A stretch of 64,000 nucleotides of DNA from assembly GCA_022843745.1 (NCBI GenBank), contig JALHNB010000018.1, positions 62,001 to 126,000 of the forward strand. Reading direction: 5' to 3'. The DNA is from Anaerolineae bacterium (GTDB taxonomy: Bacteria > Chloroflexota > Anaerolineae > Aggregatilineales > Phototrophicaceae). The notes under the pieces were generated by a model, which saw only the letters and a list, made by a program, of their open reading frames with translations, was not told the origin of the DNA and ran no database searches. A program made the translations under genes and the position numbers. Positions within the stretch are counted from its first letter, which is position 1, and each line of letters begins with the position of its first letter. Shown piece by piece: positions 4,203 to 20,532 of this stretch.

Positions 4203-6131
4203 CTACGGCAGCGGGTCTTTATAGCGTTCGAGCAGCAGTTCGATCACCGTCGCGCATGACCAGTTGTAGTCCGGGAAGCCGATGCGCTTGTTCGGGTCCC
4301 AGCCGCCGCCGGATGCCGAATTATAGTTTTCGTGCAGGAAGGGTGTGCTCTGGAACATCACCAGAATACGATCTGCGACTTCTTCGGCTTCGGCATGATA
4401 ACCGTAGCGCCAGAGTGTCTGGATGATCCAATAGACGAAGTGCGGCCAGACACGCCCGCGCCAGTAGCCGTTGGGATCATAAGCCGGGTCATCATACGAC
4501 ACGCTCGGATAGGGTTTCTCGCCGAAAAACTCGGCGGGATTGAGCATGTGCTGCTCGATAATTTTCTTGATCTCTTCCGGCGGCAGCGGCACACCCGCCC
4601 ACAGCGGCAAAAACATATTCGGCGTTTTCACGCGGTTAAACGGCTCTTTCGTGCCACTCTGGACATCATAGAACATGGCATCTTCGGGGAAATACATCGT
4701 GTCGATCATCAGTTGACCCAGTTCGTGAGCCTGCTTTTGCCACTGCGCTGCGTCATCCAAAAGGGCAAGTTCACGGGCGATGGATGCCAGACACTTGAGT
4801 TCCATGACGATAAAAGCGTTCAGATCAGGCGATTCCAGGCCATAAATCCATTCGTTGCCCTGTGGTCGCCCGTAAACGGGGTCGAAGCGCGGCGAATCGT
4901 CGGCGATCTGACCTGCGTTGTAATACTGCGCCAGACCACGTTCCGAGCCGTGATATTTGAACCAGAATTTGAGCTGCGAAACCAGACTGGGGTAAATGTG
5001 CGCCAGCCAGACACGATCCTGTGTGCGCTCGTAGGTTAACCACGCCGCCCAGGTCATGATCGGTGATTGGCCTTCACCTGCGCGGTGGGTATCGCTCATC
5101 GTACCGGGCATCGCCCCGCGTGGGCTGAGGTTGTCGGCGAAACAGGTGATGGCTTCCTGCGAGAGGTGCGGCGCAAATTCCCGCGCACCGACGCAGCTAA
5201 AAGCCGTATCCCAGAAAAACGCAATCGCTAAAATATGCTTGGTCGTCCAGGGGATATGCCCTTGCCCGGTGTAACCGCCTTCACCCTGAATATACAGGCT
5301 GTTGAGGCTGGTGATGGCGTGGGCATAAAGCCGCTGATGCGTTTCATTGGCATATTTCGCGGGCAGCGCGGGTGCTTTGTTCAGAATTTCCTGGATACGC
5401 GCCGTCTCGATTTGCGGTGACCAGCTTATGGCGATCTGTTTCCAGCTTTTTTCGGCGGCACGGGCGCGGCCTCGTGTCAAGCCAAATGACAGGCTGACCG
5501 TCAATTCGGCGCTGCCGTTCGGCGCAAGCGTGATTGTCCGATCCGCCAATTCCGCGAGGCAGACCGATTCGAGCGTGGTTTCCGGCATTCCCGCCACAAA
5601 TTCGCTCACCCAGATAAAGTTGCGACCATGTTCGCGATGTGTGAAAAGCGTTGTCCACGAACCTTCTGGCTCATCCTCGATGCTGACGCAGTGACCCGGT
5701 TGCAATGCGCCTTCCCAGTTGGGTGGCGTGCCTTTGCCGGGATAATCAAAACGCAGCGTCAATGTTCGTTCGCTGGTCGATAAATTTTCGAGTTTGAATT
5801 GAACTGCCAGCACATTGCGCAGAGGCCATGCCGCCGCTGCTGTCAGCCGCAGAGTCGGATTTTCGTCGATTTCCGTCACCACATCGGGGCGAAAATTGCG
5901 TGATTTGAAGGGTAAATCGAGCATTTTGCCCTCTTCCAGAACCGACCACCCCAATAGCTGCTCAGTGACTACCGTCCCTCCCCAACCCTGTAGCGCCTCA
6001 GCGAATTGCAGGCCGGATGCTTCGGGATTTTTCCAGGTCAGTACCATCCAGGAGTGACGATCACTCCAGGCGGCAGGCTGCTCGGTGTAGGGAACTAAAT
6101 TATCAAGATTTAAATTGTCTGCCCAGGCCAC
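4203..6131 (-). CDS. GH63/MGH1-like glycosidase
   Basis: A 642-residue protein with an N-terminal beta-sandwich region (about 1-240) and an (alpha/alpha)6-barrel of the GH63/GH37/mannosylglycerate-hydrolase type (about 260-640). Family landmarks are PWTTKHILAIAFFWDTAFS near 290, GLESPDLNAFIVMELKCL near 430, and PNGYWRGRVWPHFVYWIIQT near 545. The last carries the conserved G-WRG-W-P region. FPDYNWSCATVIELLLERY is at the C-terminus. Enzymes of this clan hydrolyse alpha-glucosides or mannosylglycerate by inversion. No signal peptide is present, so it should act on an imported sugar. The start is GTG 6131 with GGAGAATCATC in front. The permease genes lie upstream. Substrate unknown. Confidence 0.82.
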   Translation of the reverse strand: MAWADNLNLDNLVPYTEQPAAWSDRHSWMVLTWKNPEASGLQFAEALQGWGGTVVTEQLLGWSVLEEGKMLDLPFKSRNFRPDVVTEIDENPTLRLTAAAAWPLRNVLAVQFKLENLSTSERTLTLRFDYPGKGTPPNWEGALQPGHCVSIEDEPEGSWTTLFTHREHGRNFIWVSEFVAGMPETTLESVCLAELADRTITLAPNGSAELTVSLSFGLTRGRARAAEKSWKQIAISWSPQIETARIQEILNKAPALPAKYANETHQRLYAHAITSLNSLYIQGEGGYTGQGHIPWTTKHILAIAFFWDTAFSCVGAREFAPHLSQEAITCFADNLSPRGAMPGTMSDTHRAGEGQSPIMTWAAWLTYERTQDRVWLAHIYPSLVSQLKFWFKYHGSERGLAQYYNAGQIADDSPRFDPVYGRPQGNEWIYGLESPDLNAFIVMELKCLASIARELALLDDAAQWQKQAHELGQLMIDTMYFPEDAMFYDVQSGTKEPFNRVKTPNMFLPLWAGVPLPPEEIKKIIEQHMLNPAEFFGEKPYPSVSYDDPAYDPNGYWRGRVWPHFVYWIIQTLWRYGYHAEAEEVADRILVMFQSTPFLHENYNSASGGGWDPNKRIGFPDYNWSCATVIELLLERYKDPLP

Positions 6132-6142
6132 GATGATTCTCC

Positions 6143-6251
6143 TATCGGGTTAGCCCTAAATTCTAGTCAGGTTAGCCCTGAATTCTAGTCAGGTAAGTCT
6201 TGAATGCCTGCCGGGATAACCCTGAATGTTTGTCAGGTTAACCCTGAATGC
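6143..6251. repeat. Degenerate 22-bp tandem repeats overlapping a CDS end
   Basis: Five tandem units of about 22 bp share a core GGTTAGCCCTGAATnnnnGTCA. The unit nearest the permease encodes its last residues and its stop codon; the others continue into the intergenic space toward the glycosidase start. Confidence 0.8.
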
Positions 6252-7128
6252 CAGTTAAGTTGACGCCACGCACAAAATAGCGCTGTAAAAAGATGAAGAC
6301 CAGCAAGACCGGGAGCGTAATCATGACGCTGCCCGCCATCAAACGCGGCTGGTCGGTGTACCATTGGCCTTGTGCCAGATTCGCGCCCAGTTGGACGGTA
6401 TAGAGGTCGATTTTGTCCACAAAAATCAATGGGCCGAAAAAGTCATTCCACTGTCCCATGAATGTGAAAAGCCCCAGTGTCGCCAGCGCGGGCTTCATCA
6501 GCGGCAGCGCGATCTTGTAATAGACCTGAAACGTGTTGCAGCCGTCGATCCGCGCGGCATCTTCGAGGTCTTTCGGCAGTGAAAGCATGTATTGGCGCAG
6601 CAGGAATGTCCCATAGGCCGATCCCAACATGGTCGGGACGATCAGCGGATAGTGTGTATTCACCCAATTGATCTGGTAAACCAGAATGTACAGCGGGATG
6701 ATCGTCGTGATGGCTGGAACCATCATCGTACTCAGAACCACCAGAAACAATTTATCGCGTCCCGGAAAATCCAGCCGCGCGAAGGCGTACCCCGCCAAAG
6801 ATGACGTAATCAACTGCCCCAGAACGCTGAGTCCGGCAATTTTGAGCGTGTTCAGGTAAAACAGCCCGAACGGAAGGTCGCGCGTTAAGCCCTGATAATT
6901 CTCCAGTGTTGGCTCCTGGGGGATTATCGTCGGCGGAAATTGAAAGGCTTCAAATTCCGTTTTCAATGAGCCAGAAATCATCCAGTAGAACGGGAATAGC
7001 GCGGCGATGCTCAGGACAATCAGGATCGCGGTGATGATCGTTTTCTTGATGCGCGTGGCGGTTCTTAAGCTCATCTGCCAGCGGGGAGCCGCCGCAGACG
7101 GTGGCGCAGCGGTCAAAGTTCTACTCAT
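6238..7128 (-). CDS. Carbohydrate ABC transporter permease, MalG-type
   Basis: A 296-residue inner-membrane subunit of a CUT1 sugar importer. Six hydrophobic segments are visible, the first being IIALSIAALFPFYWM-like at about 33-55. The cytoplasmic EAA loop that contacts the ATPase is EDAARIDGCNTFQVYYKIALP at about 190-210. The N-terminus (1-30) is Ala/Pro-rich and cytoplasmic. It pairs with the permease gene 77 nt upstream and the Tat-exported binding protein beyond it. No ATPase gene is in the block, so a shared MsmK/UgpC-type ATPase encoded elsewhere is expected. Its C-terminus VNLTGIQG and stop lie inside a 22-bp tandem repeat array. Confidence 0.93.
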   Translation of the reverse strand: MSRTLTAAPPSAAAPRWQMSLRTATRIKKTIITAILIVLSIAALFPFYWMISGSLKTEFEAFQFPPTIIPQEPTLENYQGLTRDLPFGLFYLNTLKIAGLSVLGQLITSSLAGYAFARLDFPGRDKLFLVVLSTMMVPAITTIIPLYILVYQINWVNTHYPLIVPTMLGSAYGTFLLRQYMLSLPKDLEDAARIDGCNTFQVYYKIALPLMKPALATLGLFTFMGQWNDFFGPLIFVDKIDLYTVQLGANLAQGQWYTDQPRLMAGSVMITLPVLLVFIFLQRYFVRGVNLTGIQG

Positions 7129-7164
7129 TTTTATCTACTCTCGTTCTCGTTTACTATTTCTCTC

Positions 7165-7208
7165 AAATGTTGACAGAACCTAGTTCTCTCAAATGTCAAC
7201 AGAACCTA
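7165..7208. repeat. Two direct copies of a transposon-like end sequence
   Basis: Two 26-bp direct repeats start, read on the minus strand, with TAGGTTCTGTTGACATTT (7208-7191) and TAGGTTCTGTCAACATTT (7182-7165). The first supplies the TAG stop codon of the upstream permease. The same 18 bp forms the ends of the element at 28570-28741. Confidence 0.75.
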
Positions 7209-8102
7209 ATAATGCACCCAATATTTCGACACGCGAACCTGAACGAAGGTCGCCGCAAACATGATGAGCGTCAGAATCCAGGCCATCGCCGAGGCATAAC
7301 CCATCTTGGCCGAGCCGATTGCGGTCTGCCACAGATAATAGACATAGACATTGGTTGAGTTAACTGGCCCGCCCTGCGTCATCACGTAAATCAAGCCGAA
7401 GGATTGGAATCCGCCAATAAAACTAATGACCAGCACAAAGAATATTTGCGGTGTAAGCATCGGAATCGTGATGCGGAAGAATTTTTGAAGGTCATTCGCG
7501 CCGTCGATGGTCGCCGCTTCATACAGGTGATCGGGAATGCCCTGAAGGCCCGCCAGATAAATGATGATGTTGTACCCCAACCCTTGCCACACAGTCGCGA
7601 AAACAACGGAAGGCATCGCCAGATTGGGATCAGACAACCATTTCTGGCCTTGAAGCCCAATCGACTTGAGGAGATAGTTGATAAGCCCAAAATCGCTGTC
7701 GTACATCCAGCGCCAGAGCAGGCCAACCGCGACCACCGATGTCACCAGCGGCAGAAAAAACGCGATGCGGTAAAAGGTAACGCCAGGGACTTTCTGATTG
7801 AGCAAAACGGCTAGAACCAGCGGTATCGTGACGGAAAGCGGAATGCTGAGGACAACATAGCGAAGTGTATTTCCGAGAACTTTCCAGAACATTCTGTCGC
7901 CCGTCAGCAGTTGAATAAAGTTCTTGACACCAATGAATTCTGGCGGTGTCACAATATCCCATTTGGTAAAGCTCATGATGAGCGAAACGATGATCGGGAT
8001 AAAGATGAACGCGATCATGCCCACAAACAGCGGCGTAATGAACAGGTATCCCTCATATCGTGACCAACGGATCGAGCGTCGGGGGGTGGCGGTTGTCGCC
8101 AT
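7206..8102 (-). CDS. Carbohydrate ABC transporter permease, MalF-type
   Basis: A CUT1 permease of about 298 residues from ATG 8102, which follows GAGAGGAAAATTG. An in-frame upstream extension exists but has no ribosome-binding site and would add non-family residues. Hydrophobic segments begin with YLFITPLFVGMIAFIFIPII. The EAA loop is YEAATIDGANDLQKFFRITI near residue 195-215, and a further segment is FFVLVISFIGGFQSFGLIYV. It forms a heterodimer with the MalG-type subunit encoded next. The stop codon TAG coincides with the first base of a repeated transposon-end-like sequence. A hairpin repeat in the 200-nt gap upstream may lower expression relative to the binding protein. Confidence 0.93.
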   Translation of the reverse strand: MATTATPRRSIRWSRYEGYLFITPLFVGMIAFIFIPIIVSLIMSFTKWDIVTPPEFIGVKNFIQLLTGDRMFWKVLGNTLRYVVLSIPLSVTIPLVLAVLLNQKVPGVTFYRIAFFLPLVTSVVAVGLLWRWMYDSDFGLINYLLKSIGLQGQKWLSDPNLAMPSVVFATVWQGLGYNIIIYLAGLQGIPDHLYEAATIDGANDLQKFFRITIPMLTPQIFFVLVISFIGGFQSFGLIYVMTQGGPVNSTNVYVYYLWQTAIGSAKMGYASAMAWILTLIMFAATFVQVRVSKYWVHY

Positions 8103-8239
8103 CAATTTTCCTCTCTCACAGTGTGAAATTTCTTTCTGGTCGCTGCTCACCCCGCGAATGATTCTCACAGTATGAGCAAAGACGTTTTCGCCTGAGTACA
8201 CCACATCAATGATTCGGGCGCTTCCCGTAGGGGTTTCCC

Positions 8240-8264
8240 GTAGGGGCAGGTCTCAGACCTGCCC
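8240..8264. repeat. Family A palindromic repeat
   Basis: GTAGGGGCAGGTCTCAGACC is followed by TGCCC. It lies just after the binding-protein gene and before the first permease, a usual place for a stabilising hairpin that favours binding-protein mRNA. Confidence 0.75.
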
Positions 8265-8310
8265 TTTCTCAAGAGATGTGGCGATACGTGCGAAGATGGA
8301 ATGCGCAGAT

Positions 8311-9633
8311 TTAGCTGTTGTTTGCCAGAATCTCTTCCATACCAAGCTGAATTTCCTGAAGTGCGTCCGCTGCCGGTACCTGACCCAGGAAAGCCGCCTC
8401 GGAATTTGGAATGATGAACTGTGTCAGAATTTCGTTGTGGTTGATGCCAAGTGAATCGCTCGAAACGACATCGGCATTCGTCACATCCAGGAAGACCTGA
8501 CCGCCGCGCTCGACCATCTCTGGTGTCAGGAAGGCTTCGGGTGCGCCTGCGGGGATTGAGAATCCGGTGCGCCCCAGAACTTTAGCGCCGTCGCCAATCG
8601 ACATGTGCTTGAGGAATGCCCATGATTCCTCAGGATGTTCGGTAGTCGCGACCATGCCAAAGCCGGATGTCCAGAGCATACTGGTCAGCGGGCCGCCTTC
8701 ATAGGCGCGTGGCATGGGGACGACGTGCCAGTCAATTTTGTCGCTGTTTTGCAGCAGTTGCACAGTGTCAATTGTATGGCTCGACCACATCGCCAGTTTC
8801 CCCGAAAGCTGGCGCGTGCCAGAATCCTGAACGGCTAACTGCTCCGGCGAGGGTGAAATGCCATCGACGAGAATGGTATCGACCAGCCATTGCAGCGCTT
8901 CGGCGTTCTTCGGGTCATTGGCGGTTGGGACGGTAAAGTCCCCGGTACGGCGGTCAAAGAAGCCCGGCCCATCGTTCGCCCACAGATATTGCTCGTAGAC
9001 CCAGGGGCCAGTCGGTGTCATCCAGCCAAAGGTCTTATCGGTGTCATCACCGGAGGTGAGCGCCTTCGCTTTTTCGACCAGTTCTGCCCATGTCCAGCCA
9101 TCTTCCGGCGGTTCGACTCCCGCAGCATCAAAGATGCCCTTGTTATAGATGACGGCATGAGAGACGTAATCTTTTGGCATCCCGAACAGCTTGCCATTCT
9201 GCGTGTAGAGGTCGAGTAATTTTTGGGGAACGGGGCCACCCTCGAAATCGGCATCGCCTTCGATAAACGTATTGAGGTCAGCCAGAAGCCCAACATTTGA
9301 CCAATTGATCGGCGGGCCGTAGGTGGCAACGGCGGTCATGTCCGGTGGGTCGCCTGCCGCGATGCGCGTATTCATTTTCGCCAGCATTTCCGGCCAACCA
9401 CCTGGTACAGGTGTCCAGGTCATTGCGATTTCGGGGTGCGCTTTATTAAACAGGTCAACTGCTTCCTGGTGAACTTCGTCCAGGCCAAAGCCCATAATCT
9501 CGACGGGCGTAGCGTCCTGCGCTTGCGGTGCTGCGAATACCTGTGACACACCAGTGGCTGCCAGAAGGGTAGACCCCCCTGCCGCTGAAGCTGCACGTAG
9601 AAAATCCCGACGACTAAGATTTTTGGATGGCAT
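8311..9633 (-). CDS. Tat-exported sugar-binding protein of an ABC transporter
   Basis: About 440 residues, a family 1 extracellular solute-binding protein. The N-terminus carries a twin-arginine signal (NLSRRDFLRAASAAGG, then a hydrophobic stretch and VFAAPQA). The protein is therefore exported folded. Typical SBP1 segments are FNKAHPEIAMTWTPVPGGWPE, MNTRIAAGDPPDM, GKLFGMPKDYVSHAVIYNKG and a later KLAMWSSHTID. ATG 9633 follows AAAGGGAAAATA; a TTG five codons upstream overlaps that site and is rejected. It is the first gene of the transport block and has a strong promoter at 9727-9755. The sugar is unknown. Confidence 0.93.
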   Translation of the reverse strand: MPSKNLSRRDFLRAASAAGGSTLLAATGVSQVFAAPQAQDATPVEIMGFGLDEVHQEAVDLFNKAHPEIAMTWTPVPGGWPEMLAKMNTRIAAGDPPDMTAVATYGPPINWSNVGLLADLNTFIEGDADFEGGPVPQKLLDLYTQNGKLFGMPKDYVSHAVIYNKGIFDAAGVEPPEDGWTWAELVEKAKALTSGDDTDKTFGWMTPTGPWVYEQYLWANDGPGFFDRRTGDFTVPTANDPKNAEALQWLVDTILVDGISPSPEQLAVQDSGTRQLSGKLAMWSSHTIDTVQLLQNSDKIDWHVVPMPRAYEGGPLTSMLWTSGFGMVATTEHPEESWAFLKHMSIGDGAKVLGRTGFSIPAGAPEAFLTPEMVERGGQVFLDVTNADVVSSDSLGINHNEILTQFIIPNSEAAFLGQVPAADALQEIQLGMEEILANNS

Positions 9634-9708
9634 TATTTTCCCTTTCAAATTAAAAAATAGGTTTATGCAGAATAAGATTTGCGCGTTAATCTTAACCGCG
9701 CCGGGTGG

Positions 9709-9731
9709 AGATTATCGATTATCAATAATCT
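9709..9731. promoter_or_regulatory. Near-palindromic operator candidate
   Basis: A 23-bp imperfect palindrome AGATTATCGATTATCAATAA plus TCT, with two mismatched pairs and an unpaired centre. It overlaps the -10 element of the binding-protein promoter. A dimeric repressor such as the GntR protein encoded at 2080-2733 could bind here. Confidence 0.5.
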
Positions 9732-9755
9732 ACCGACATGGAGGGGATTTGTCAA
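9727..9755 (-). promoter_or_regulatory. Sigma70-type promoter of the sugar-transport block
   Basis: On the minus strand TTGACA (9755-9750) is separated by exactly 17 nt from TAGATT (9732-9727). The leader to ATG 9633 is about 90 nt. Confidence 0.65.
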
Positions 9756-9787
9756 ACAATGATGCGGAATTGGTATTTTTGTCCAGA

Positions 9788-10165
9788 CTATAACCTGTCG
9801 CTTGGCGAACTCAATTCAATTGCCCGTCCATCAGGGTCTTGCACAACTGCCCGCTTCCCCCACTGGCTGTCCTGCGGTGCGGTCAAAATTGTCATTCCTT
9901 GAGCTTGAAATTTCTCAATAACCGCGTCTAAATTTTCGACCTGAAAACCGAGCATCGTCGCGCCCGCATTTCTCCTGTCTGGCGCGTTCCCCGGCTTGCC
10001 TGGAAAAATCTCAATCACGATTTCTCGCATTATGCTTGCATAGTGGATTGGCCCCGAACCATGCTGTTCCTGCGTGAATTCCAGACCTAACGCGCGATAA
10101 AAAGCCAACGATTTCTCGACATCAGCTGCGCGAATGACGATCAGATTCAATGAAGGTTGTGCCAT
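9788..10165 (-). CDS. VOC/glyoxalase-fold protein
   Basis: About 125 residues with two beta-alpha-beta-beta-beta modules of the vicinal-oxygen-chelate superfamily. The first is LNLIVIRAADVEKSLAFYRALG; the second contains GFQVENLDAVIEKFQAQG and ends with AVVQDPDGRAIEL. Members bind a divalent metal or act as antibiotic-sequestering dimers. The first-position metal His is replaced by Asn/Ile-type residues here, so catalysis is uncertain. ATG 10165 is taken; GTG two codons upstream is possible. The bicupin gene lies immediately upstream on the same strand, about 9 nt away, and co-expression is likely. Confidence 0.85.
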   Translation of the reverse strand: MAQPSLNLIVIRAADVEKSLAFYRALGLEFTQEQHGSGPIHYASIMREIVIEIFPGKPGNAPDRRNAGATMLGFQVENLDAVIEKFQAQGMTILTAPQDSQWGKRAVVQDPDGRAIELSSPSDRL

Positions 10166-10174
10166 AGTCACGAT

Positions 10175-10804
10175 TTATACCCGGTCAGTTTTGGGTTGGG
10201 CGGGGTTATGGGTGTGATTCCACAGATGACCGAGGCGCTTTTGACCTTCAAGCGTCGTTTCAAAATAAACGGCGCGGACAGGCTCATGAACCAGTGGAAA
10301 ATCATGGTGATGCCCCATGCCAGTTGCAACACAGTCGCCTTTTTTGACCTCGTAGGGTTTGTTTTCGGAAACGGCGACACCGCTTCCCTGGAAAATAATC
10401 CAATATTCGTCGCAATCGTGATAATGGCGATCAAAATTGGTTTCTTTAGCGTAAGCATGTGAATCGCCGTTGTCGCGAGGGTCGTCACTTTTCCTGACGG
10501 AGAACAGGCCGGAGCCGCCTAATTCATCGCCCCAATGACCCGCCATATAGATGAGAGTGGTTGGTGTTTGCGTCTCGGTCACGGCAAACGGCGCTTCACC
10601 TTCACGAGTGTCGAGATTTGCGCCTTCTTCCGCCGAAATTGTTTTGCTCGCGTAAGTGATCGTGCATTTCCCTGCCCCGACGATCAGCTTTTCCTTCGCA
10701 GCGCGGCGCTCAAACGTGTGACTCGCGCCAATGGGCAGCTCGACAATTTCGTAGAATCGAAGTTCACACCAGCCGCGATCCGCTTCACTTTGGAAAACGG
10801 GCAT
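10175..10804 (-). CDS. Bicupin-like protein
   Basis: About 209 residues with two cupin-type barrels. The N-terminal half has ELPIGASHTFERRAAKEKLI and a Gly-rich turn but no clear metal His pair. The C-terminal half has RHYHDCDEYWIIFQGSG and GDCVATGMGHHHDFPLVHEP, with His, His, Glu and a distal His in positions expected to hold a metal ion. Such proteins are often sugar isomerases, epimerases or dioxygenases, and the reaction is unknown. ATG 10804 follows AGGGGAG; an in-frame start seven codons earlier lacks such a site. It is followed closely by the VOC gene. Confidence 0.75.
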   Translation of the reverse strand: MPVFQSEADRGWCELRFYEIVELPIGASHTFERRAAKEKLIVGAGKCTITYASKTISAEEGANLDTREGEAPFAVTETQTPTTLIYMAGHWGDELGGSGLFSVRKSDDPRDNGDSHAYAKETNFDRHYHDCDEYWIIFQGSGVAVSENKPYEVKKGDCVATGMGHHHDFPLVHEPVRAVYFETTLEGQKRLGHLWNHTHNPAQPKTDRV

Positions 10805-10945
10805 TTTATGGACTCCCCTGCTCACTATTTGATGTCAATTGTATTCTATATGAAGGGGATCGGGGAGATTCTCGTGATCAGAGGATGGGAAATCGGCGCG
10901 GGTTCGGGGCATGGGTGATGAAAAGTCATTGGCACCAATGGTACA

Positions 10946-10969
10946 GCGCGCAAAGCTTTGCGCCCCTAC
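10946..10969. repeat. Family A palindromic repeat
   Basis: Core GCGCAAAGCTTTGCGC is a perfect palindrome followed by CCCTAC. It lies between the bicupin and hypB genes. Confidence 0.75.
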
Positions 10970-11012
10970 AAAAAAAACTGCGCAACATGGAATGTAAATC
11001 TTAACCTAATGT

Positions 11013-11037
11013 GGGCGATACGCCGTATCGCCCCTAC
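11013..11037. repeat. Family A palindromic repeat
   Basis: GGGCGATACG and CGTATCGCCC are inverted around one central base, then CCTAC. It lies just after the hypB stop codon and could act as a 3' hairpin. Confidence 0.75.
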
Positions 11038-11048
11038 ACAAGCCTAAA

Positions 11049-11726
11049 CTACCACACGCTCGGCTGGCGCTCGGCCTCGACCTCATTCGCGACCCAATCG
11101 AGCCACGCATTCACGCCTTCGCCAGTCTTGCAGGACAGCGCGAATGTCTCCAATCCAGGGTTGAGCGCCTCGACTCCGCGCCGGAAATAATCCATATCAA
11201 ATGGCACATACGGCAGCAGGTCGATTTTATTGATGACCAGCACATCGACTCCGCGATAAATGCCCGGATATTTATACGGCTTGTCCGCGCCTTCCGGGAT
11301 CGAGGCGACCAGCACACTTTTATGTGTGCCAAGCTGGAAATTCGATGGGCAGATCAGATTGCCGACATTCTCGACAATCAACAGGTCAATTTCGCCCAGT
11401 GTGAGCTGCGGCATAGCATCCTGGAGCATAATCGCGTCCAGGTGACAATTGCCGCCCGTGTTAATCTGTACCGATTTGACTGCCCCGGCAGCATCCGCAC
11501 GGTCAGCATCCAGGCTGGTCGCGATATCACCATTGATGACCGCCAGCCGCAGCCGATCCTGTAGACCCTGAATAGTTCGCTCAACCAGGGATGTCTTGCC
11601 TGCGCCGGGGGAAGCCATAAAATTCAGGCTGTACACACAGGCTGCGTCCAGATGTGCGCGATTTTCGGCAGCAACGCGGTCATTCGCGCTCATGATTTTT
11701 TCGACAACGGGGATTCGCTTCGTCAT
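11049..11726 (-). CDS. hypB: Hydrogenase/urease nickel-incorporation GTPase HypB
   Basis: HypB uses GTP hydrolysis to help insert nickel into hydrogenase (and sometimes urease) apo-enzymes. The 225 residues contain the P-loop SPGAGKTSLVE near 39-48. Also present are the switch region INGDIATSLDADRADAAG, the metal-site motif NTGGNCHLDA near 89-98, ENVGNLICP near 119, and the guanine-specificity motif NKIDL near 166. The N-terminal CxxCxC motif and any His-rich stretch are missing, as in many HypB proteins. Its ATG overlaps the hypA stop by 4 nt (ATGA), indicating translational coupling. No hydrogenase structural gene or hypCDEF lies in the window. Confidence 0.96.
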   Translation of the reverse strand: MTKRIPVVEKIMSANDRVAAENRAHLDAACVYSLNFMASPGAGKTSLVERTIQGLQDRLRLAVINGDIATSLDADRADAAGAVKSVQINTGGNCHLDAIMLQDAMPQLTLGEIDLLIVENVGNLICPSNFQLGTHKSVLVASIPEGADKPYKYPGIYRGVDVLVINKIDLLPYVPFDMDYFRRGVEALNPGLETFALSCKTGEGVNAWLDWVANEVEAERQPSVW

Positions 11727-12106
11727 GGTGTCACTTCCTTTTCATTCACTTCGTCAACGTCAATTGCTTCCAGATAGAATTCTTCGCCAGCCGCTATCCG
11801 CACCTCCGCGCTGCCACATTCAGGACACGTAAAATCATCACCGTGCATGGGATAGTGCGCGTAACAAATTTCGCATTCAAATTCGGCGGGGATGCGTCGG
11901 AAATGCAGGCGTGAGCCTTCGGCGGGTGTATTCTGGCTGATGATGTCCCAATAAAACTGGACAGAGTCATCTATAACAGAGGAAAGCTGGCCGATCACCA
12001 GATGCAAATCGGTAATGTGCGGAGTATGCGCGGTTTCAGGCTGCGCGTTTCCAGCGTACTGCAATGCCAGATTGAGGACACTGGCCGTGATAGCGAGTTC
12101 GTGCAT
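11723..12106 (-). CDS. hypA: Nickel metallochaperone HypA
   Basis: HypA delivers nickel with HypB. The start MHELAI supplies the nickel ligands (N-terminal amine, His2, Glu3). The 127 residues end in a zinc-binding domain with ECEIC and TCPEC, two CxxC pairs separated by about 15 residues. Asp/Glu-rich residues follow at the C-terminus. Length and layout are standard. It is the first gene of a two-gene hypA-hypB unit with a 4-nt overlap. The client enzyme must be encoded elsewhere. Confidence 0.95.
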   Translation of the reverse strand: MHELAITASVLNLALQYAGNAQPETAHTPHITDLHLVIGQLSSVIDDSVQFYWDIISQNTPAEGSRLHFRRIPAEFECEICYAHYPMHGDDFTCPECGSAEVRIAAGEEFYLEAIDVDEVNEKEVTP

Positions 12107-12214
12107 ATTTTGCTCTTCCCTTATGGTTAGAGCGTAGCATGGCCCGCGCAGGCTGTCCCCTGAATTTTGTCACTGAAAAAGGGTTATGATTCTAAGGGAT
12201 TATCTTGAAAATCA

Positions 12215-12261
12215 CTCACCTCACCCCTAACCCGCTTCGCGTCCAATGCGTTGGAGAGGGG
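12215..12261. repeat. Family B repeat, short copy
   Basis: CACCTCACCCCTAACCCGC is followed by TTCGCGTCCAATGCG and TTGGAGAGGGG. This is a truncated version of the longer inverted repeats elsewhere, lying between hypA and the ribbon-helix-helix gene. Confidence 0.65.
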
Positions 12262-12314
12262 AATAAGAATCGTTGTCGGATATGGTGAAGCAATAAAAAA
12301 TATTCAAGTAGCCT

Positions 12315-12785
12315 CTAGGGTTTTATATCGTCTGTGGGGTCGCTCAAATGTAAGGATGTGAGTCGGGCGATACGCAATTTTTTCCACAAAATCGACCAGT
12401 TATAAACGGCTTCCTGAATCGCCTCATCCGCGAGGTCGGCAGGTTTGACTTTTTCCTCGCGCACGGCGTTGAGAATTTTGCTGCCAACGATGGAGACGAG
12501 AATCACGATGACGGTCAGCGCCCACTCGATGCGGTCATGACGGGGTTCGTTGGGGATTGCCGAGGGTTTGGGTGTGTCTGCGAGCGCTTCGTTCTGCTGA
12601 TTAATCTGGTTGAGTTCGTTTTCGACCTGCTCGTTTTGCTCGACATACAACCACAGCGCAGCCCGCACGACATCGGCCTCGCTGTCATATCCATGCGTGT
12701 CGATGGCTTGCTGGATGCGCGTTTTCAGCTCCGGGGAGATGCGTGCGCCGACTCGTTCACTGAATGGGCTTTCCTCTTTTGGCAT
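12315..12785 (-). CDS. Ribbon-helix-helix protein with a membrane segment
   Basis: About 156 residues. Residues 10-55 (RVGARISPELKTRIQQAIDT, then EADVVRAALWLYVEQ) fit a ribbon-helix-helix DNA-binding or dimerisation unit. A Gln/Asn/Glu-rich coiled-coil stretch follows (about 50-70). A single hydrophobic segment ALTVIVILVSIVGSKIL lies near 88-104 and a charged tail follows. A membrane-tethered RHH protein is unusual, and the role is unknown. The start is uncertain: ATG 12785 is used, with GGATGGG just upstream, while GTG 12806 and ATG 12794 are in frame. No partner toxin gene is adjacent. Confidence 0.65.
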   Translation of the reverse strand: MPKEESPFSERVGARISPELKTRIQQAIDTHGYDSEADVVRAALWLYVEQNEQVENELNQINQQNEALADTPKPSAIPNEPRHDRIEWALTVIVILVSIVGSKILNAVREEKVKPADLADEAIQEAVYNWSILWKKLRIARLTSLHLSDPTDDIKP

Positions 12786-12900
12786 ATTTCCCATCCCACT
12801 TATCACTATTACCTAATATCTACATATTGTACCCCAATGGCTCATTTTGTCGCTGGGTTGTGACGATGGACTGATGCGCCAAAAATATCCCCTGATTTTT

Positions 12901-12924
12901 GGGGTTGTCAAATTTGACAACCCC
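12901..12924. promoter_or_regulatory. Perfect 24-bp palindrome at a promoter
   Basis: The half-site GGGGTTGTCAAA is followed directly by its exact complement. The right half contains the -35 hexamer of the downstream promoter. This is the geometry of a repressor operator for the peptide/sugar transport operon. Confidence 0.7.
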
Positions 12925-12942
12925 GGTTGGAAGGTTCATAAT
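12914..12942 (+). promoter_or_regulatory. Sigma70-type promoter of the Opp-like operon
   Basis: TTGACA (12914-12919) is separated by 17 nt from CATAAT (12937-12942). The transcript would start about 95 nt before ATG 13044, which has AAGGAG seven nt upstream. Confidence 0.75.
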
Positions 12943-13043
12943 AGCCTTCAGCGAGTCGAAATTCTTCTTTATATTCAGGCGATTTTAAACCTCTGTTGGT
13001 ATGAGCTTGTATATAGAGAAGAGAAAATCATCAAGGAGTATAT

Positions 13044-14708
13044 ATGTTTAGACGAAGCAGTTCTTTACTAGTGGTATCGTTGATAGCGCTCATGGCTCTC
13101 AGCCTGTCTGCGCCGTTGTTCGCGCAGGATGCGATGGCAACCACTGCCGAGTGTGGCAGTGAAGGTTATGCCGGTAATTGGAAATCGCTTGAGATGGTGG
13201 ACAGCATGACCCTCAAGATCACGCTGTGCAATCCTGACCCGGCGTTCCCCTCGAAAATCGCGTTCTCCGGTTTCCCCATTAACTCTGCGGAATACCTGGA
13301 AACCACAGGTGGCGGTGGTGATCTGATCCAGAACCCCATCGGCACTGGCCCGTACATGCTCGAAAATTGGGAACTGGGCAGCGAAGTTGTCCTGACCCGC
13401 AACGATGCCTATTGGGGCGAAGTTGCCAAAGAACCAACCGCCATTATCCGCTGGAACTCGGAAGCGACACAACGCCTGATCGAACTCCAGTCCGGCAATG
13501 TGGATGGCATCGCCAGCATCGGCACGGGCGATTTTGAAGTCGTTCAGATGGATTCCAATCTGGCGCTGATCCCTACCTCGATCACCAACGTTTTCTATCT
13601 CGGTTTGAATAACCGATTCCCGCCGCTAGATAACCAGCAGGTGCGCCAGGCCATTGCCCACGCGATTGACAAACAGCGTATTGTCGATAACTACTATCCT
13701 GCTGGCTCGGTTGTCGCCACCCAGTTCATGCCCCCGGTTCTTTTTGGCTATACACCCGAAGTTGAACCGCTGGCTTATGATGTTGATCTGGCGAACCAGA
13801 TGCTCGACGAAGCTGGTTTCCCGAAGGACGCGAACGGCGTTCGTTTCACGCTCGACCTGCACTATCGTGACGTGGTGCGCGGTTACCTGCCCACCCCAGG
13901 TGTCGTCGGTGCTGATCTCCAGGAACAGCTTGCCGCTGTCGGTATCACGCTGAACGTTGCCGCTATCGAATCCGGCGCGTTCCTGGACGCCGTAGCAGCC
14001 AGCAACGAAGCCATGTTTATGCTGGGCTGGGGCATGGATTATCCCGATGCCACCAACTTCCTCGACTTTCACTTCGGTGCTGGTTCGGCCTCCACACCAC
14101 GTTTTGGCGACCTCTATCCTGAAATAACCGACCCGCTGACACAAGCTGCTCAATTGGGTAAGCCCGAAGATCGTTATCCGATCTATGTTGAGGCGAACAC
14201 TGCTATCCGGGACCTCGTACCGATGGTGCCGATTGCTCACGGCGCAGGCGCAAATGCCTGGAAAGCCAGCATCGAAGGCGCGTATGCCGCTCAGGTTGGC
14301 GTCACCCTGCTTTCGAAGATGGAAGACCCGGACGATGACAATATCATCTACATGCAGAACGCTGAACCGATCAGCCTGTTTTGCGGTGACGAAACCGACG
14401 GTGAAACCTTCAGCGCTTGCGGTCAGATCAATGAAACGCTGCTGAACTACAATCCCGATACTGGCGAGGTTATTCCCTGGCTGGCGAGCGAATTCAACAT
14501 CAACGAAGATGCTACCGAATTCACGTTCACCATTCGTGATGGTGTAACCTTCACCGATGGCTCTACACTGGATGCAGCCGATGCTTATACGTCATTGTTG
14601 ATGGCGTGGGATGCAGCTCACCCACTCCATGTCGGACGTACCGGTACATTTGAGTATTTCGGCTCGTTCTTTGGTGGCTTCCTGAATCCGCCGCCCGCAA
14701 CAGAGTAA
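13044..14708 (+). CDS. Circularly permuted family 5 substrate-binding protein
   Basis: A 554-residue exported binding protein of the Opp/Dpp/nickel type, with a Sec signal at 1-27 (hydrophobic LLVVSLIALMALSLSAP, cut near LFAQ). Known family 5 proteins begin with the segment that has ETLLxYDPDTGEVxPWLAE and FTLRDGVxFxDG. They continue through SVEVVDDxTVxxTL and PxGTGPYxxxxW. Here the order is rotated. The mature protein starts at KSLEMVDSMTLKITLCNPDP and PIGTGPYMLENW, continues through the ligand lobe, and ends with INETLLNYNPDTGEVIPWLA and FTIRDGVTFTDGSTLDAADA. The C-terminus (FEYFGSFFGGF) would join directly to the N-terminus in the canonical fold. Strong AAGGAG start site. Two permeases follow. 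Confidence 0.88.
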   Translation: MFRRSSSLLVVSLIALMALSLSAPLFAQDAMATTAECGSEGYAGNWKSLEMVDSMTLKITLCNPDPAFPSKIAFSGFPINSAEYLETTGGGGDLIQNPIGTGPYMLENWELGSEVVLTRNDAYWGEVAKEPTAIIRWNSEATQRLIELQSGNVDGIASIGTGDFEVVQMDSNLALIPTSITNVFYLGLNNRFPPLDNQQVRQAIAHAIDKQRIVDNYYPAGSVVATQFMPPVLFGYTPEVEPLAYDVDLANQMLDEAGFPKDANGVRFTLDLHYRDVVRGYLPTPGVVGADLQEQLAAVGITLNVAAIESGAFLDAVAASNEAMFMLGWGMDYPDATNFLDFHFGAGSASTPRFGDLYPEITDPLTQAAQLGKPEDRYPIYVEANTAIRDLVPMVPIAHGAGANAWKASIEGAYAAQVGVTLLSKMEDPDDDNIIYMQNAEPISLFCGDETDGETFSACGQINETLLNYNPDTGEVIPWLASEFNINEDATEFTFTIRDGVTFTDGSTLDAADAYTSLLMAWDAAHPLHVGRTGTFEYFGSFFGGFLNPPPATE

Positions 14709-14733: not shown

Positions 14734-14761
14734 GTAGGGGCGACGCATGCGTCGCCCCTAC
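14734..14761. repeat. Family A perfect palindrome
   Basis: 28 bp, exact: GTAGGGGCGACGCA and its complement. It lies 25 nt after the binding-protein stop, where a hairpin could separate its mRNA from the permease genes. Confidence 0.85.
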
Positions 14762-14882: not shown

Positions 14883-15959
14883 ATGTCCACTTTTTTGATA
14901 CGCCGTCTCGTATCGGCCATACCCGTCTTATTCGGCATTCTGCTGGTGACATTTACGCTGAATCGTTCGATCCCTGGCGATCCCTGTCGGGCGATCCTCG
15001 GTGAGAAAGCGACTGCCGAGACCTGCAACGCCTTCAGTGCGCGTTTTGGCCTCGACGAGCCGATCCCCGTGCAGTTTCTTATCTACATACGGAATGTGCT
15101 TCAGGGCGATCTCGGTACATCTTTCCGCTTTGGCCGCACGGTTGTCGATCTATTGATCGAACGCTTGCCCACCACCATCGAGTTAGCCATGAGCGCCCTG
15201 TTCTTAGCCATCATGGCTGGCATCCCGCTGGGCATTATTTCAGCCTACCGTCACAATTCACGCCTGGACGTGGCGACGATGATTTTTGCCAACACAGGCG
15301 TTTCGATGCCTGTTTTCTGGCTTGGGTTGATGCTGTCGTTCTTCTTCGCGGTGACGCTGAAGGATACGCCGTTCGCGCTGCCGCCTTCAGGCCGCCTGAC
15401 CGCCGGACTAAATCCGATCCCCTTCTATATGCAATGGGGGCTAGCTGCCAGTGAGGAAACCGCCAGCAATATTTTGGTTTTTCTCTCACGCTTCAATATC
15501 CTCAATGGGATTTTGACCTTCAATACCGAACTGCTGATCGATTCTTTCCGGCATCTCATCCTGCCAGCCATTGCCGTTGGTACGATCCCCCTGGCGATCA
15601 TCGCCCGCATGACCCGCGCCAGCCTGCTCGATACACTCAGTCAGGACTATACGCGCACGGCACGCGCCAAAGGGCTGCGAGAAATGTCGGTGGTCGTGCG
15701 ACACGCGCTGCGTAATTCACTTTTGCCCGTCGTGACCATCATTGGCTTAAATTTTGGCGGCCTGGTCAGCGGCGCAGTGCTGACCGAGACGATCTTTGGC
15801 TTCAGTGGTATTGGTCGAACCTTATTTGATGGCATTACCGCGCGGGACTACGCCCTGGTGCAAGGAGTCACGTTGGTGACGGCGGTGGCCTTCGTCCTGA
15901 TAAATTTGTTTGTGGATATTTTATACGGCTACCTTGATCCTCGTATCCGTCTGAGTTAA
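14883..15959 (+). CDS. Opp/Dpp-type ABC permease, DppB family
   Basis: A 358-residue inner-membrane protein of the peptide/nickel/oligosaccharide importer class. The N-terminal signature is FLIRRLVSAIPVLFGILLVT and RSIPGDPC. The periplasmic/cytoplasmic segments VQFLIYIRNVLQGDLGTSFR are typical of DppB. The EAA-type loop is DYTRTARAKGLREMSVVVRH near 255-275, and the last helix ends in VDILYGYLDPRIRLS, the usual C-terminus of this family. It partners the DppC-type subunit encoded 20 nt downstream. No DppD/DppF ATPase genes follow, so the ATPases must be shared or encoded elsewhere. Confidence 0.94.
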   Translation: MSTFLIRRLVSAIPVLFGILLVTFTLNRSIPGDPCRAILGEKATAETCNAFSARFGLDEPIPVQFLIYIRNVLQGDLGTSFRFGRTVVDLLIERLPTTIELAMSALFLAIMAGIPLGIISAYRHNSRLDVATMIFANTGVSMPVFWLGLMLSFFFAVTLKDTPFALPPSGRLTAGLNPIPFYMQWGLAASEETASNILVFLSRFNILNGILTFNTELLIDSFRHLILPAIAVGTIPLAIIARMTRASLLDTLSQDYTRTARAKGLREMSVVVRHALRNSLLPVVTIIGLNFGGLVSGAVLTETIFGFSGIGRTLFDGITARDYALVQGVTLVTAVAFVLINLFVDILYGYLDPRIRLS

Positions 15960-15979: not shown

Positions 15980-16942
15980 ATGGATGTCCAGCGCACAGAC
16001 CCTAAAGTAGCCGTTCTTGAGACAAAATCGCCCGTCAAAACCATCCAGAAATCCGAAAACCCCTGGGTCATCCTGCTGCGCGATCTGCTGCATCACCGTT
16101 CGGCGGTGTTAGGTCTGATTATTATCGGCTCATTGATACTGGTCGCGCTGTTTGCCAATGTAATCGCCACGCATGACCCGCTGAAATCCATGATCGGTGT
16201 AACGGGCGAAGTCCCTCCCCTGCCGCGCAAAGACCCCTGTATTCCGGCTTTCGGCTGCACCGAACCCATGCACTTGATGGGTCTGGATTTAAATGCTCGG
16301 GATGTGTTCAGCCGCTTGATCTATGGGGCGCGGGTGTCGCTGCCCATCGGCATTATTTCGCTGGGGTTTGCGTCGATTCTTGGCTCGTTGATCGGCATTA
16401 TTTCCGGCTACCTCGGCGGTTGGGCAGATAACATCATTATGCGTATTATGGATGTGCTGCTGGCATTTCCCTCGCTGCTATTGGCAATCGCCATTGTTAC
16501 GATTCGCGGCCCTAGCCTGGAAAACGCCCTGATCGCGATTGGCATCGTCTCGATTCCCGGTTATGCACGGTTGGCGCGCGCCAGCGTACTTTCGGTCAAG
16601 GAACTCGAATTTGTCACCGCGGAACGTGCGCTTGGAGCCAATCACGGACGTATTATTTTTTCGCATATTCTTCCTAACAGCCTCGCTCCGTTGATCGTAC
16701 AGACGGCATTAGGTGTCGGTGGTGCGGTGCTTTCGGCTTCGGCGCTCTCATTTCTTGGCCTCGGCGCGCAGCCTCCTATCGCGGAATGGGGCGCAATGTT
16801 GGCCGAGTCTCGTGCTTACATTTTCACGAGTCCCCACTTGGTGCTATTTCCGGGGCTGGCGATCATGATAACCGTCCTCGGCTTCAACCTCCTCGGTGAT
16901 GGCCTCCGCGATGTGCTTGATCCCCGCCTGCGTGGACGCTAA
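15980..16942 (+). CDS. Opp/Dpp-type ABC permease, DppC family
   Basis: A 320-residue membrane subunit. A cytoplasmic N-terminal tail of about 45 residues ends at the first helix SAVLGLIIIGSLILVALFAN. The DppC signature MGLDLNARDVFSRLIYGARV (usual form GTDxxGRDxxSRxxxGxRxS) is near residue 98. The EAA loop ELEFVTAERALGANHGRIIF is near 212-231. The C-terminus LGFNLLGDGLRDVLDPRLRG is canonical. It forms the translocation pore with the DppB-type protein. A family A repeat and the DUF5107 gene follow. Confidence 0.95.
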   Translation: MDVQRTDPKVAVLETKSPVKTIQKSENPWVILLRDLLHHRSAVLGLIIIGSLILVALFANVIATHDPLKSMIGVTGEVPPLPRKDPCIPAFGCTEPMHLMGLDLNARDVFSRLIYGARVSLPIGIISLGFASILGSLIGIISGYLGGWADNIIMRIMDVLLAFPSLLLAIAIVTIRGPSLENALIAIGIVSIPGYARLARASVLSVKELEFVTAERALGANHGRIIFSHILPNSLAPLIVQTALGVGGAVLSASALSFLGLGAQPPIAEWGAMLAESRAYIFTSPHLVLFPGLAIMITVLGFNLLGDGLRDVLDPRLRGR

Positions 16943-19338: not shown

Positions 19339-20532
19339 ATGGATACCGTCACGCCAGAATCAGTCGGGATGTCGTCGGAACGGTTGGAGCGTATTCGCCC
19401 GTTCATCGAGCGTAATATCAACGAAGGAAAATTCGCAGGTGTGGCGACATTGATCGCACGGCAAGGTCGCGTGGCCTATTTCGATTGTGTCGGCATGATG
19501 GACAAGGAGGCGGGTAAGCCCATGCAGGCCGATACGCTTTTTCGCATCTACTCGATGACCAAGCCGATCACCAGTTTTGCGCTGCTGATGCTCTACGAGC
19601 AAGGCCTGGTGCGGCTCAGTGATCCGGTATCGCGCTTCATCCCGGCCTTTAAAGATTTAAAAGTTTTCAGCCGACCCTTACCAGCAGGTATGGTACTCGA
19701 CAATTTGCAGCGCGAAATCACGGTGCATGATCTGTTTACACATACCTCCGGCCTGTCCTATGGCTTCAACGAGGACTCCCCTGTCGATGCCATGTACCGG
19801 AAAATCGAACTTCTGCGGCCTGATCGCAAGAGCGTGAAAGAATTTATTGACGATCTGGTCACGCTGCCGCTGGTGAATCAGCCGGGGACGGTCTGGCGTT
19901 ACAGCGTCGCGACGGACGTGATTGGCTATCTGGTAGAACTCATTTCCGGGATGCCGCTGGGGCAATTTTTCGAGGAGCGCATTTTCCGGCCTCTGGGGAT
20001 GGTCGATACGAGTTTCGCCGTACCGCCGGAGAAAATAAATCGCTTCTCGACAGTATACGGGCTTCACCCCGCAGGCGGGATTGTGCCGATTGAAACCCCG
20101 GATAAAAGCGCGTTTACGATGGCGGATCGTGCGCAATCCGGCGGCGGTGGACTGGTATCGACGGTTTCGGATTATCTGCGATTCGCCCAAATGCTGCTTA
20201 ACGGCGGTGAATTGGACGACACACGGCTGATGAGTCGCAAAACTATCGAACTCATGACGATGAATCACCTGCCTGCACACATGCTGCCATTTGGCGTTGG
20301 AAATGTCGGCTACGGCTTTGGCCTGGGCGTGAGCGTCGTGATGGATTTGGCGCAGTACGGCAATATCGGCTCCGTTGGCGCGTATGAATGGGGAGGTGCG
20401 GCGAATACGCTGTTTTGGGTTGATGCGAAAGAAAAGCTGATCGGCATTCTGATGACTCAGTTTATGCCCGCGTGGCATTTCCCGCTGGCGGATGATTTCC
20501 GCGTGATGGTTTATCAGGCGATTGCGGATTAG
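19339..20532 (+). CDS. Beta-lactamase-fold serine hydrolase
   Basis: About 397 residues, class C beta-lactamase/esterase family (EstB-like), with no signal peptide. The catalytic Ser-x-x-Lys is in YSMTKPITSFALLMLYEQG near residue 74-77. The second motif Tyr is in RYSVATDVIGYLVE near 190, where the Asn of the lactamase YxN motif is absent. This favours an esterase or peptidase over antibiotic hydrolysis. EWGGAANTLFWVD near 358 carries the third-motif equivalent. The start ATG 19339 follows AAAGGAACAATT; an in-frame extension of seven codons upstream lacks a binding site. The gene stands alone. Confidence 0.9.
   Translation: MDTVTPESVGMSSERLERIRPFIERNINEGKFAGVATLIARQGRVAYFDCVGMMDKEAGKPMQADTLFRIYSMTKPITSFALLMLYEQGLVRLSDPVSRFIPAFKDLKVFSRPLPAGMVLDNLQREITVHDLFTHTSGLSYGFNEDSPVDAMYRKIELLRPDRKSVKEFIDDLVTLPLVNQPGTVWRYSVATDVIGYLVELISGMPLGQFFEERIFRPLGMVDTSFAVPPEKINRFSTVYGLHPAGGIVPIETPDKSAFTMADRAQSGGGGLVSTVSDYLRFAQMLLNGGELDDTRLMSRKTIELMTMNHLPAHMLPFGVGNVGYGFGLGVSVVMDLAQYGNIGSVGAYEWGGAANTLFWVDAKEKLIGILMTQFMPAWHFPLADDFRVMVYQAIAD

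Follow-up and report, generated by a model that had tools for sequence, protein, structure and literature searches.

The window analyzed here, a stretch of 64,000 nucleotides from an Anaerolineae bacterium, encodes a family 5 solute-binding protein whose conserved blocks stand in rotated order: what is the middle and end of DppA comes first in this protein, and what is the beginning of DppA comes last. We find the same order in related proteins from many genomes of the phylum Chloroflexota, and in most loci that allow the comparison the gene is followed by genes for DppB- and DppC-type permeases. Taken as a whole, the observations very probably reflect a working, permuted substrate-binding protein of a Dpp/Opp-type importer, with a single origin in which fusion to another binding protein came first; the parts of this explanation differ in strength, and each is graded below where its evidence is given.

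Block order of the window protein

The gene is intact, as the original prediction held, running for 554 codons from its ATG behind an AAGGAG site, and the coordinates and the placement of motifs given in that prediction proved correct (Table 1). The region scanned for promoters held 4 promoter-like sites, compared to 1.9 ± 1.5 in shuffled sequences. The first 27 residues are Sec-like and stand ahead of the permuted chain, in agreement with the claim that the protein is, to judge by its sequence, secreted; cleavage would follow A27. Upstream of the binding-protein gene lie two adjacent ORFs on the minus strand (11049–12106) that resemble, by eye, HypB and HypA of nickel hydrogenase maturation.

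Table 1. Features of the binding-protein locus, in window coordinates
Feature	Position	Strand	Basis and remarks
Candidate sigma-70-like promoter, TTGACA-17-CATAAT	12914–12942	+	Consensus scan, 11/12 bases
Ribosome-binding site, AAGGAG	13033–13038	+	Read off the sequence
Circularly permuted family 5 solute-binding protein	13044–14708	+	554 aa, ATG; Pfam, phmmer, block profile
Predicted Sec signal peptide, residues 1–27	13044–13124	+	Read off the sequence; without lipobox Cys
Four Cys codons in all, residues 37, 62, 447 and 459	13152–14420 (span)	+	Read from the ORF
Core block, residues 46–412 (about DppA mature 124–490)	13179–14279	+	phmmer to 1dpp/3m8u; VIA-align
R279, equivalent to DppA R355 (R383 of precursor)	13878–13880	+	phmmer alignment; R in 73/75 permuted rows
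D332, equivalent to DppA D408 (D436 of precursor)	14037–14039	+	phmmer alignment; D in 75/75 permuted rows
Linker, about residues 418–432 (...MEDPDDD)	14295–14339	+	75-row permuted alignment; limits approximate
C-terminal block, about residues 433–541 (DppA mature 2–118)	14340–14666	+	Profile of 30 relatives
DppB-like permease	14883–15959	+	Pfam PF00528, PF19300; phmmer to E. coli DppB 8z1v, E 4.9e-79
DppC-like permease	15980–16942	+	Pfam PF00528, PF12911

The only Pfam family that passes an E value of 0.001 with this ORF is PF00496 (SBP_bac_5), which matches at an E value of 1.7e-74 in two stretches, the better of which pairs residues 45–348 of the protein with positions 64–365 of the profile. 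Homology to solute-binding protein family 5 is well above the curated cut-off (251.6 bits versus 32.4), while the protein scores far below the cut-off of the DppA equivalog NF043070 (165.6 bits versus 1005).

The rotation is apparent when the two parts of the protein are aligned separately with DppA (1dpp). phmmer pairs residues 49–412 with chain residues 127–490 (i-Evalue 1.5e-37) and residues 450–540 with chain residues 19–116 (i-Evalue 1.3e-4). A profile of the C-terminal block, made from 30 permuted proteins that were chosen from 95 and that include the window protein, matched residues 2–118 of 1dpp (E value 4.5e-27) and residues 3–120 of chain 3m8u (E value 1.8e-28) when compared with PDB sequences. 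Together the two blocks amount to nearly the whole of DppA, in the order 127–490 followed by 2–118, with the cut at about DppA 117–126. Both the rotated order and the position of the break are those that had been predicted. The canonical, unpermuted order of cluster C is absent from the window protein, in which phmmer and the profile place the core ahead of the N block, and on its sequence we file the protein as a permuted subclass, set apart from the canonical members of cluster C.

We take the cut to lie inside domain II, the additional subdomain of lobe 1, and the C-terminal block is presumably the first strand of domain I together with half of domain II, rather than lobe I alone. A linker of approximately 15 residues, which in relatives often reads DPGGRD, bridges the old C-terminus and the old N-terminus. 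Rotation at this place is feasible because the two chain ends of an oligopeptide-binding protein are near each other in domain I (PMC10924461). In the rearrangement that we propose, these neighboring termini would have been joined by the short linker, new ends would have been opened at about DppA 117–126, and the rotation would have left fold, cleft and docking surface as they were.

Among the 111 distinct related ORFs in the loci fetched up to L123, 95 are rotated and 9 are canonical, and the remaining 7 have no detected N block. The 95 rotated ORFs, on which many of the counts below are based, are a non-random set in which L104–L123 and some other loci were picked for long frames or for divergence.

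Transport partners, ligand residues and fused domains

For the E. coli transporter, PMC12136057 reports that R383 and D436 of DppA bind a dipeptide at its carboxyl and its amino terminus and that these two residues contact the DppB scoop loop at E41 and R42. The equivalent residues of the window protein are R279 and D332, both of which are conserved in nearly all or all permuted proteins (Table 1). The permease that would receive the ligand also has its part of this arrangement: the scoop loop of the window DppB reads E41-K42, compared to E41-R42 in E. coli DppB, and in the 68 DppB rows that adjoin permuted proteins, the window included, E41 is found in 67 and R, K or H at position 42 in all 68. 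The window gene thus has DppB/DppC-type neighbors as well as the dipeptide-end residues of a Dpp/Opp importer subunit. The ligand is likely a zwitterion, either a peptide or a peptide-like compound, and DppBC is the likely partner. We propose that the protein would close on such a ligand, dock on DppBC and, in the manner of DppA, pass the ligand on to the DppB scoop loop.

Several other features of the locus were noted. The scoop region of the window DppB has a pair of Cys residues, at positions 35 and 48, at which Cys is found in 55 and 54 of the 68 DppB rows, respectively. No ATPase gene adjoining the permeases was seen by eye among the ORFs listed to position 20000. Between the binding-protein and DppB genes lies a perfect palindrome of 28 nt, GTAGGGGCGACGCATGCGTCGCCCCTAC (14734–14761), which is a REP-like element; the genome has 50 sites with at most 3 mismatches to it, compared to 0 for the reversed control, and many of the changes are paired (compensating).

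The association with permeases extends to most of the family. DppB and DppC genes lie downstream on the same strand of 33 of the 42 ORFs whose downstream sequence is available for 2,600 nt or more, while one or both are lacking for the other 9; this count omits the larger loci L061–L071, which repeat ORFs already in the set. In 13 of 20 larger loci both permeases are found downstream on the same strand, in L067 and L068 the permeases are on the opposite strand, and in five of the 20 (L069, L071, L072, L075 and L080) there are no permeases. The last of these is the locus of the paralog in the window's own genome, which has no DppB or DppC within its 19 kb.

The genes that stand apart from permeases, that paralog among them, would be expected if the family were mainly a ligand sensor or an environmental receptor and not an importer subunit, and the same can be said of L110 and L117, in each of which a stretch in front of the permuted domain looks by eye like a membrane helix; L117 also has caspase and FHA domains there. 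We nevertheless consider a predominantly sensory family unlikely, as most of the testable ORFs, that of the window too, have both DppB and DppC downstream, and the adjoining DppB proteins retain their scoop charges. The L117 ORF (1908–5165, plus strand, from genome G123) encodes a caspase domain (PF00656), HEAT and FHA domains and the apparent membrane helix, followed by the permuted domain, and this chain is a possible transmembrane receptor.

The permuted domain is frequently fused to other binding-protein domains, and it is always the last domain of the chain: in none of the 95 ORFs do more than 12 residues follow it. In 34 of the 95 ORFs, between one and three further binding-protein domains stand in front of it, comprising 28 with SBP_bac_3, 3 with one Peripla_BP_6, 2 with two Peripla_BP_6 and 1 with both families; the partners were assigned by Pfam in examples, and in the other ORFs by similarity to those examples. 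Without the loci picked for long frames (L104–L123), fusions are found in 18 of 75 ORFs. L043 and L053 (at a contig end, with a Peripla_BP_6-like tail by eye), L101 (LysM-like), L110 and L117 were counted as single. The L101 ORF (3486–5558, minus strand) has a weak LysM match ahead of the permuted domain (E value 0.0021, 18.4 bits, below the Pfam cut-off of 20.9), and this part may anchor the permuted domain to the cell wall. In L074, two neighboring ORFs on the plus strand (5902–8772 and 9265–13275) have near-identical permuted domains, one with one Peripla_BP_6 domain in front and the other with two.

Fusions to family 3 domains have a complex history. A tree of 29 fused and 23 free family 3 domains needs 6 changes between the fused and the free state, 5 of which are forced by well-supported branches, and its main fused group contains three unfused members, from L077, L113 and L140. 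The L140 protein is on a very long branch. The L077 gene (9834–10625, plus strand) lies between the permuted gene and DppB, and that of L113 (frame from 247, 272 aa) lies just upstream of the permuted gene, as if in these two loci the fusion had split or had yet to form. Family 3 partners are found in several lineages, and therefore the partners have also been swapped or regained.

The recurrent fusions, with up to three binding-protein families per chain, point to importers that have several capture domains. A bolder reading, which we regard as possible but doubtful, is that the permuted domain is a docking adaptor for the one to three domains in front of it and that the rotation was born in a fusion. 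If this were true, a single DppBC pore would receive ligands captured on one anchored chain by domains of family 5, family 3 and Peripla_BP_6, and room for the front domains would come from the relocation of the chain end out of domain I and into domain II. A rotation that took place within a fusion would therefore have provided the rotated protein with a secretion signal at once.

Origin, predicted fold and spread of the rotated form

A search for proteins with the same block order and their placement on trees, which had been suggested as a check of the original prediction, put the rotated proteins on one side of a well-supported branch. In a tree of 75 rotated and 16 non-rotated rows, one branch separates the two sets (SH-aLRT 98), and a subset of 39 rotated rows is likewise separated from six near canonical sisters (bootstrap 99, SH-aLRT 98). 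In a quick tree of 64 rows, two canonical proteins, L003 and L008, fell within the permuted group, on branches with 2–3 changes per column; the later tree was rebuilt with only the six near sisters, leaving out L003 and L008. These sisters (L084–L089), the nearest canonical ones that were found in the phylum, have the normal order and are 34–37% identical over the core. The rotation most likely arose once, in the ancestor of a Chloroflexota-wide family.

Four fusions with family 3 domains (L097, L104, L098 and L105) branch deepest among the permuted proteins, the next fork being weak (89/74), and Fitch parsimony assigns a multi-domain state to the permuted root, on a chosen subset of 39 of the 95 ORFs that is enriched in fusions. 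These results suggest a fusion-first origin, which is far less certain than the permutation itself. In the ancestor of the family, the rotated domain had probably been fused in frame to the end of a secreted binding protein of family 3, and this partner would have provided the signal and the anchor for the new N-terminus; the single-domain form of the window protein would then be derived. We also considered anchoring alone, of the kind raised for Tp0684, as the cause of the permutation, but anchoring does not require a rotated chain, since the canonical sisters L084–L087 also have N-termini that look, by eye, like those of lipoproteins.

The same net block order would result from a composite, in which the core lost its own N block and acquired, at the 3′ end, an N block from a different family 5 gene, and the authors of the paper on the permuted protein Tp0684 say that an acquisition of this kind may be implied there (PMC4990184). 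Such a composite is improbable here, as several deep members (L079, L097, L098, L099, L109, L111 and L113) end precisely at the cut, with ..GGFKGE, as a single cut predicts.

Two AlphaFold models of the window protein were made. The first, with five permuted rows in the alignment, had a pLDDT of 52.3 and a pTM of 0.44, and its Foldseek match to 1dpe (E value 8.5e-19, TM 0.36) is given little weight in view of the weak model. The second (pLDDT 60.8, pTM 0.65) had eleven rows, six of which are pieces of three canonical homologues, encoded in viral-contig loci, and were entered as separate rows; because this canonical homology information was added by hand, the second run is not a blind test of the rotation. 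Mature residues 17–390 of the second model align with residues 122–495 of 1dpp over 339 residues (VIA-align Z 26.1, rmsd 3.4), and the best structural matches are dipeptide-binding proteins, at Z 26. The model thus supports the core fold of the window protein. In both runs, the C-terminal 110 residues have pLDDT values mostly below 50, and the structural aligner barely covers them. Neither model is a structure in which the C-terminal block fails to complete the lobe, the block being of low confidence in both. Because the model has low confidence there, the evidence for closure is the profile homology to DppA 2–118, from which we infer that the C-terminal block completes the lobe.

The Cys residues of the family come in pairs. 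In 75 permuted rows, an N-terminal Cys and C62 are both found in 66, neither in 5 and one of them in 4, and C447 and C459 are both found in 66, neither in 7 and one in 2. The window protein would accordingly be expected to have two disulfides, the first of which would pin the new N-terminus.

If the protein formed a domain-swapped dimer, each lobe would be completed by the C-terminal block of the partner chain, an arrangement that could accommodate both the short linker ahead of this block and its placement without confidence in the AlphaFold model. We think it quite unlikely that the protein is built in this way, given that the canonical termini adjoin in domain I (PMC10924461), such that a short linker suffices within one chain.

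The original prediction left it open whether other Chloroflexota share the rotation, and we find that they do. A further rotated copy, which matches residues 19–549 with 54% identity, is encoded on a different contig of the window's own genome. At E values ≤1e-60, matches are found in 16 of 41 genomes (its own and relatives), with all 19 matches crossing the junction in rotated order, and in 148 of 346 genomes (43%) sampled from the class, where, among the matches listed, the junction is crossed in all but G269 (at a contig end), some of the matches being partial. At E values ≤1e-50, 65 of 400 genomes from the phylum have a match, of which 53 are rotated, 11 are to the core of a canonical-like protein and 1 (G568) ends at residue 404. 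Rotated and canonical proteins are also distinct in their scores: of 60 genomes around one that bears a canonical protein, 25 have a match, either rotated (6 genomes, E ≤2.0e-158) or covering the core or little more (19 genomes, E ≥2.1e-69), with a gap between the two groups. The retention of the rotated order across so many genomes speaks for the earlier view that the permutation is functional and not a recent scramble.

Viral contigs, plasmids and a wide set of species were searched as well. Scans of viral contigs found no permuted relative; family 5 proteins turned up in three loci (L124, L163 and L197), all of canonical order. A plasmid search returned 3,976 records with a match, and in 24 of them the match extends over 80% or more of the query. 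The 25 plasmid rows among the matches listed are each joined from two pieces, as the canonical order predicts. A scan of 84,980 species with six peptides found five loci, four of them permuted and titled Chloroflexi, Anaerolineae or Aggregatilineales, and the fifth a partial core match only, from a spirochaete.

Although the genome of the window is a draft of 117 contigs, an assembly artefact in which two adjacent partial genes were misjoined is ruled out for practical purposes by the independent rotated copies, namely the second copy on another contig of the same genome, the 95 distinct rotated ORFs, which span 32 family labels in one phylum and 87 labels of source (with separate entries for the window and its own genome), and the rotated matches in the single-contig genomes G050, G066, G069 and G257, with none of the 111 scored ORFs having an N block on both sides.

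Comparison with known systems

The closest known proteins are the canonical members of cluster C (DppA, OppA, NikA and GbpA; PF00496), to which the permuted proteins are homologous over nearly the entire chain, with ligand-end residues as in DppA and with DppBC-type permeases as neighbors in both. Unlike these proteins, the permuted family has the rotated order, two conserved Cys pairs and frequent fusion behind other binding domains. We note as a warning that a profile search lists a permuted protein like any other member of the family, with its match in two stretches.

Importers of the GlnPQ type have tandem substrate-binding domains of one family that are fused to the permease. Both they and the present family have more than one binding domain per chain, but here the domains belong to different families and the last one is permuted. 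The E. coli DppABCDF system has the same transport scheme, with counterparts here to R383 and D436 of DppA and to E41 and R42 of DppB, as these are given in PMC12136057; E. coli DppA is unpermuted, while the window protein is permuted.

Our literature search, which had subscription journals and preprints outside its scope, returned among the matches listed no description of a permuted family 5 protein. It did find one published case in which the binding protein of an importer is naturally permuted, in another fold class: Tp0684 (TpMglB-2) of Treponema pallidum, an ABC-importer binding protein whose permutation is shared by its family. Its authors suggested that tethering may be the reason for the permutation, and they put forward the class ‘Type Ic / Cluster Bc’ (PMC4990184). 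Tp0684 differs from the present proteins in that it has a type I, cluster B sugar-binding fold, belongs to another sequence family and is permuted elsewhere, and in that the available part of its description notes no multi-binding-domain fusions, compared to the recurrent fusions found here (PMC4990184). The ‘Cluster Bc’ fold of Tp0684 is absent from the window protein, for which PF00496 alone passes in Pfam and the structural matches are dipeptide-binding proteins.

The phylum-wide family and its canonical sisters amount to a natural experiment on where the termini of a binding protein may lie, on anchor geometry versus docking and on the routes by which a secreted protein can become rotated. 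The idea known from Tp0684 is seen here in the family 5 class, across one phylum and with multi-domain fusions in addition.
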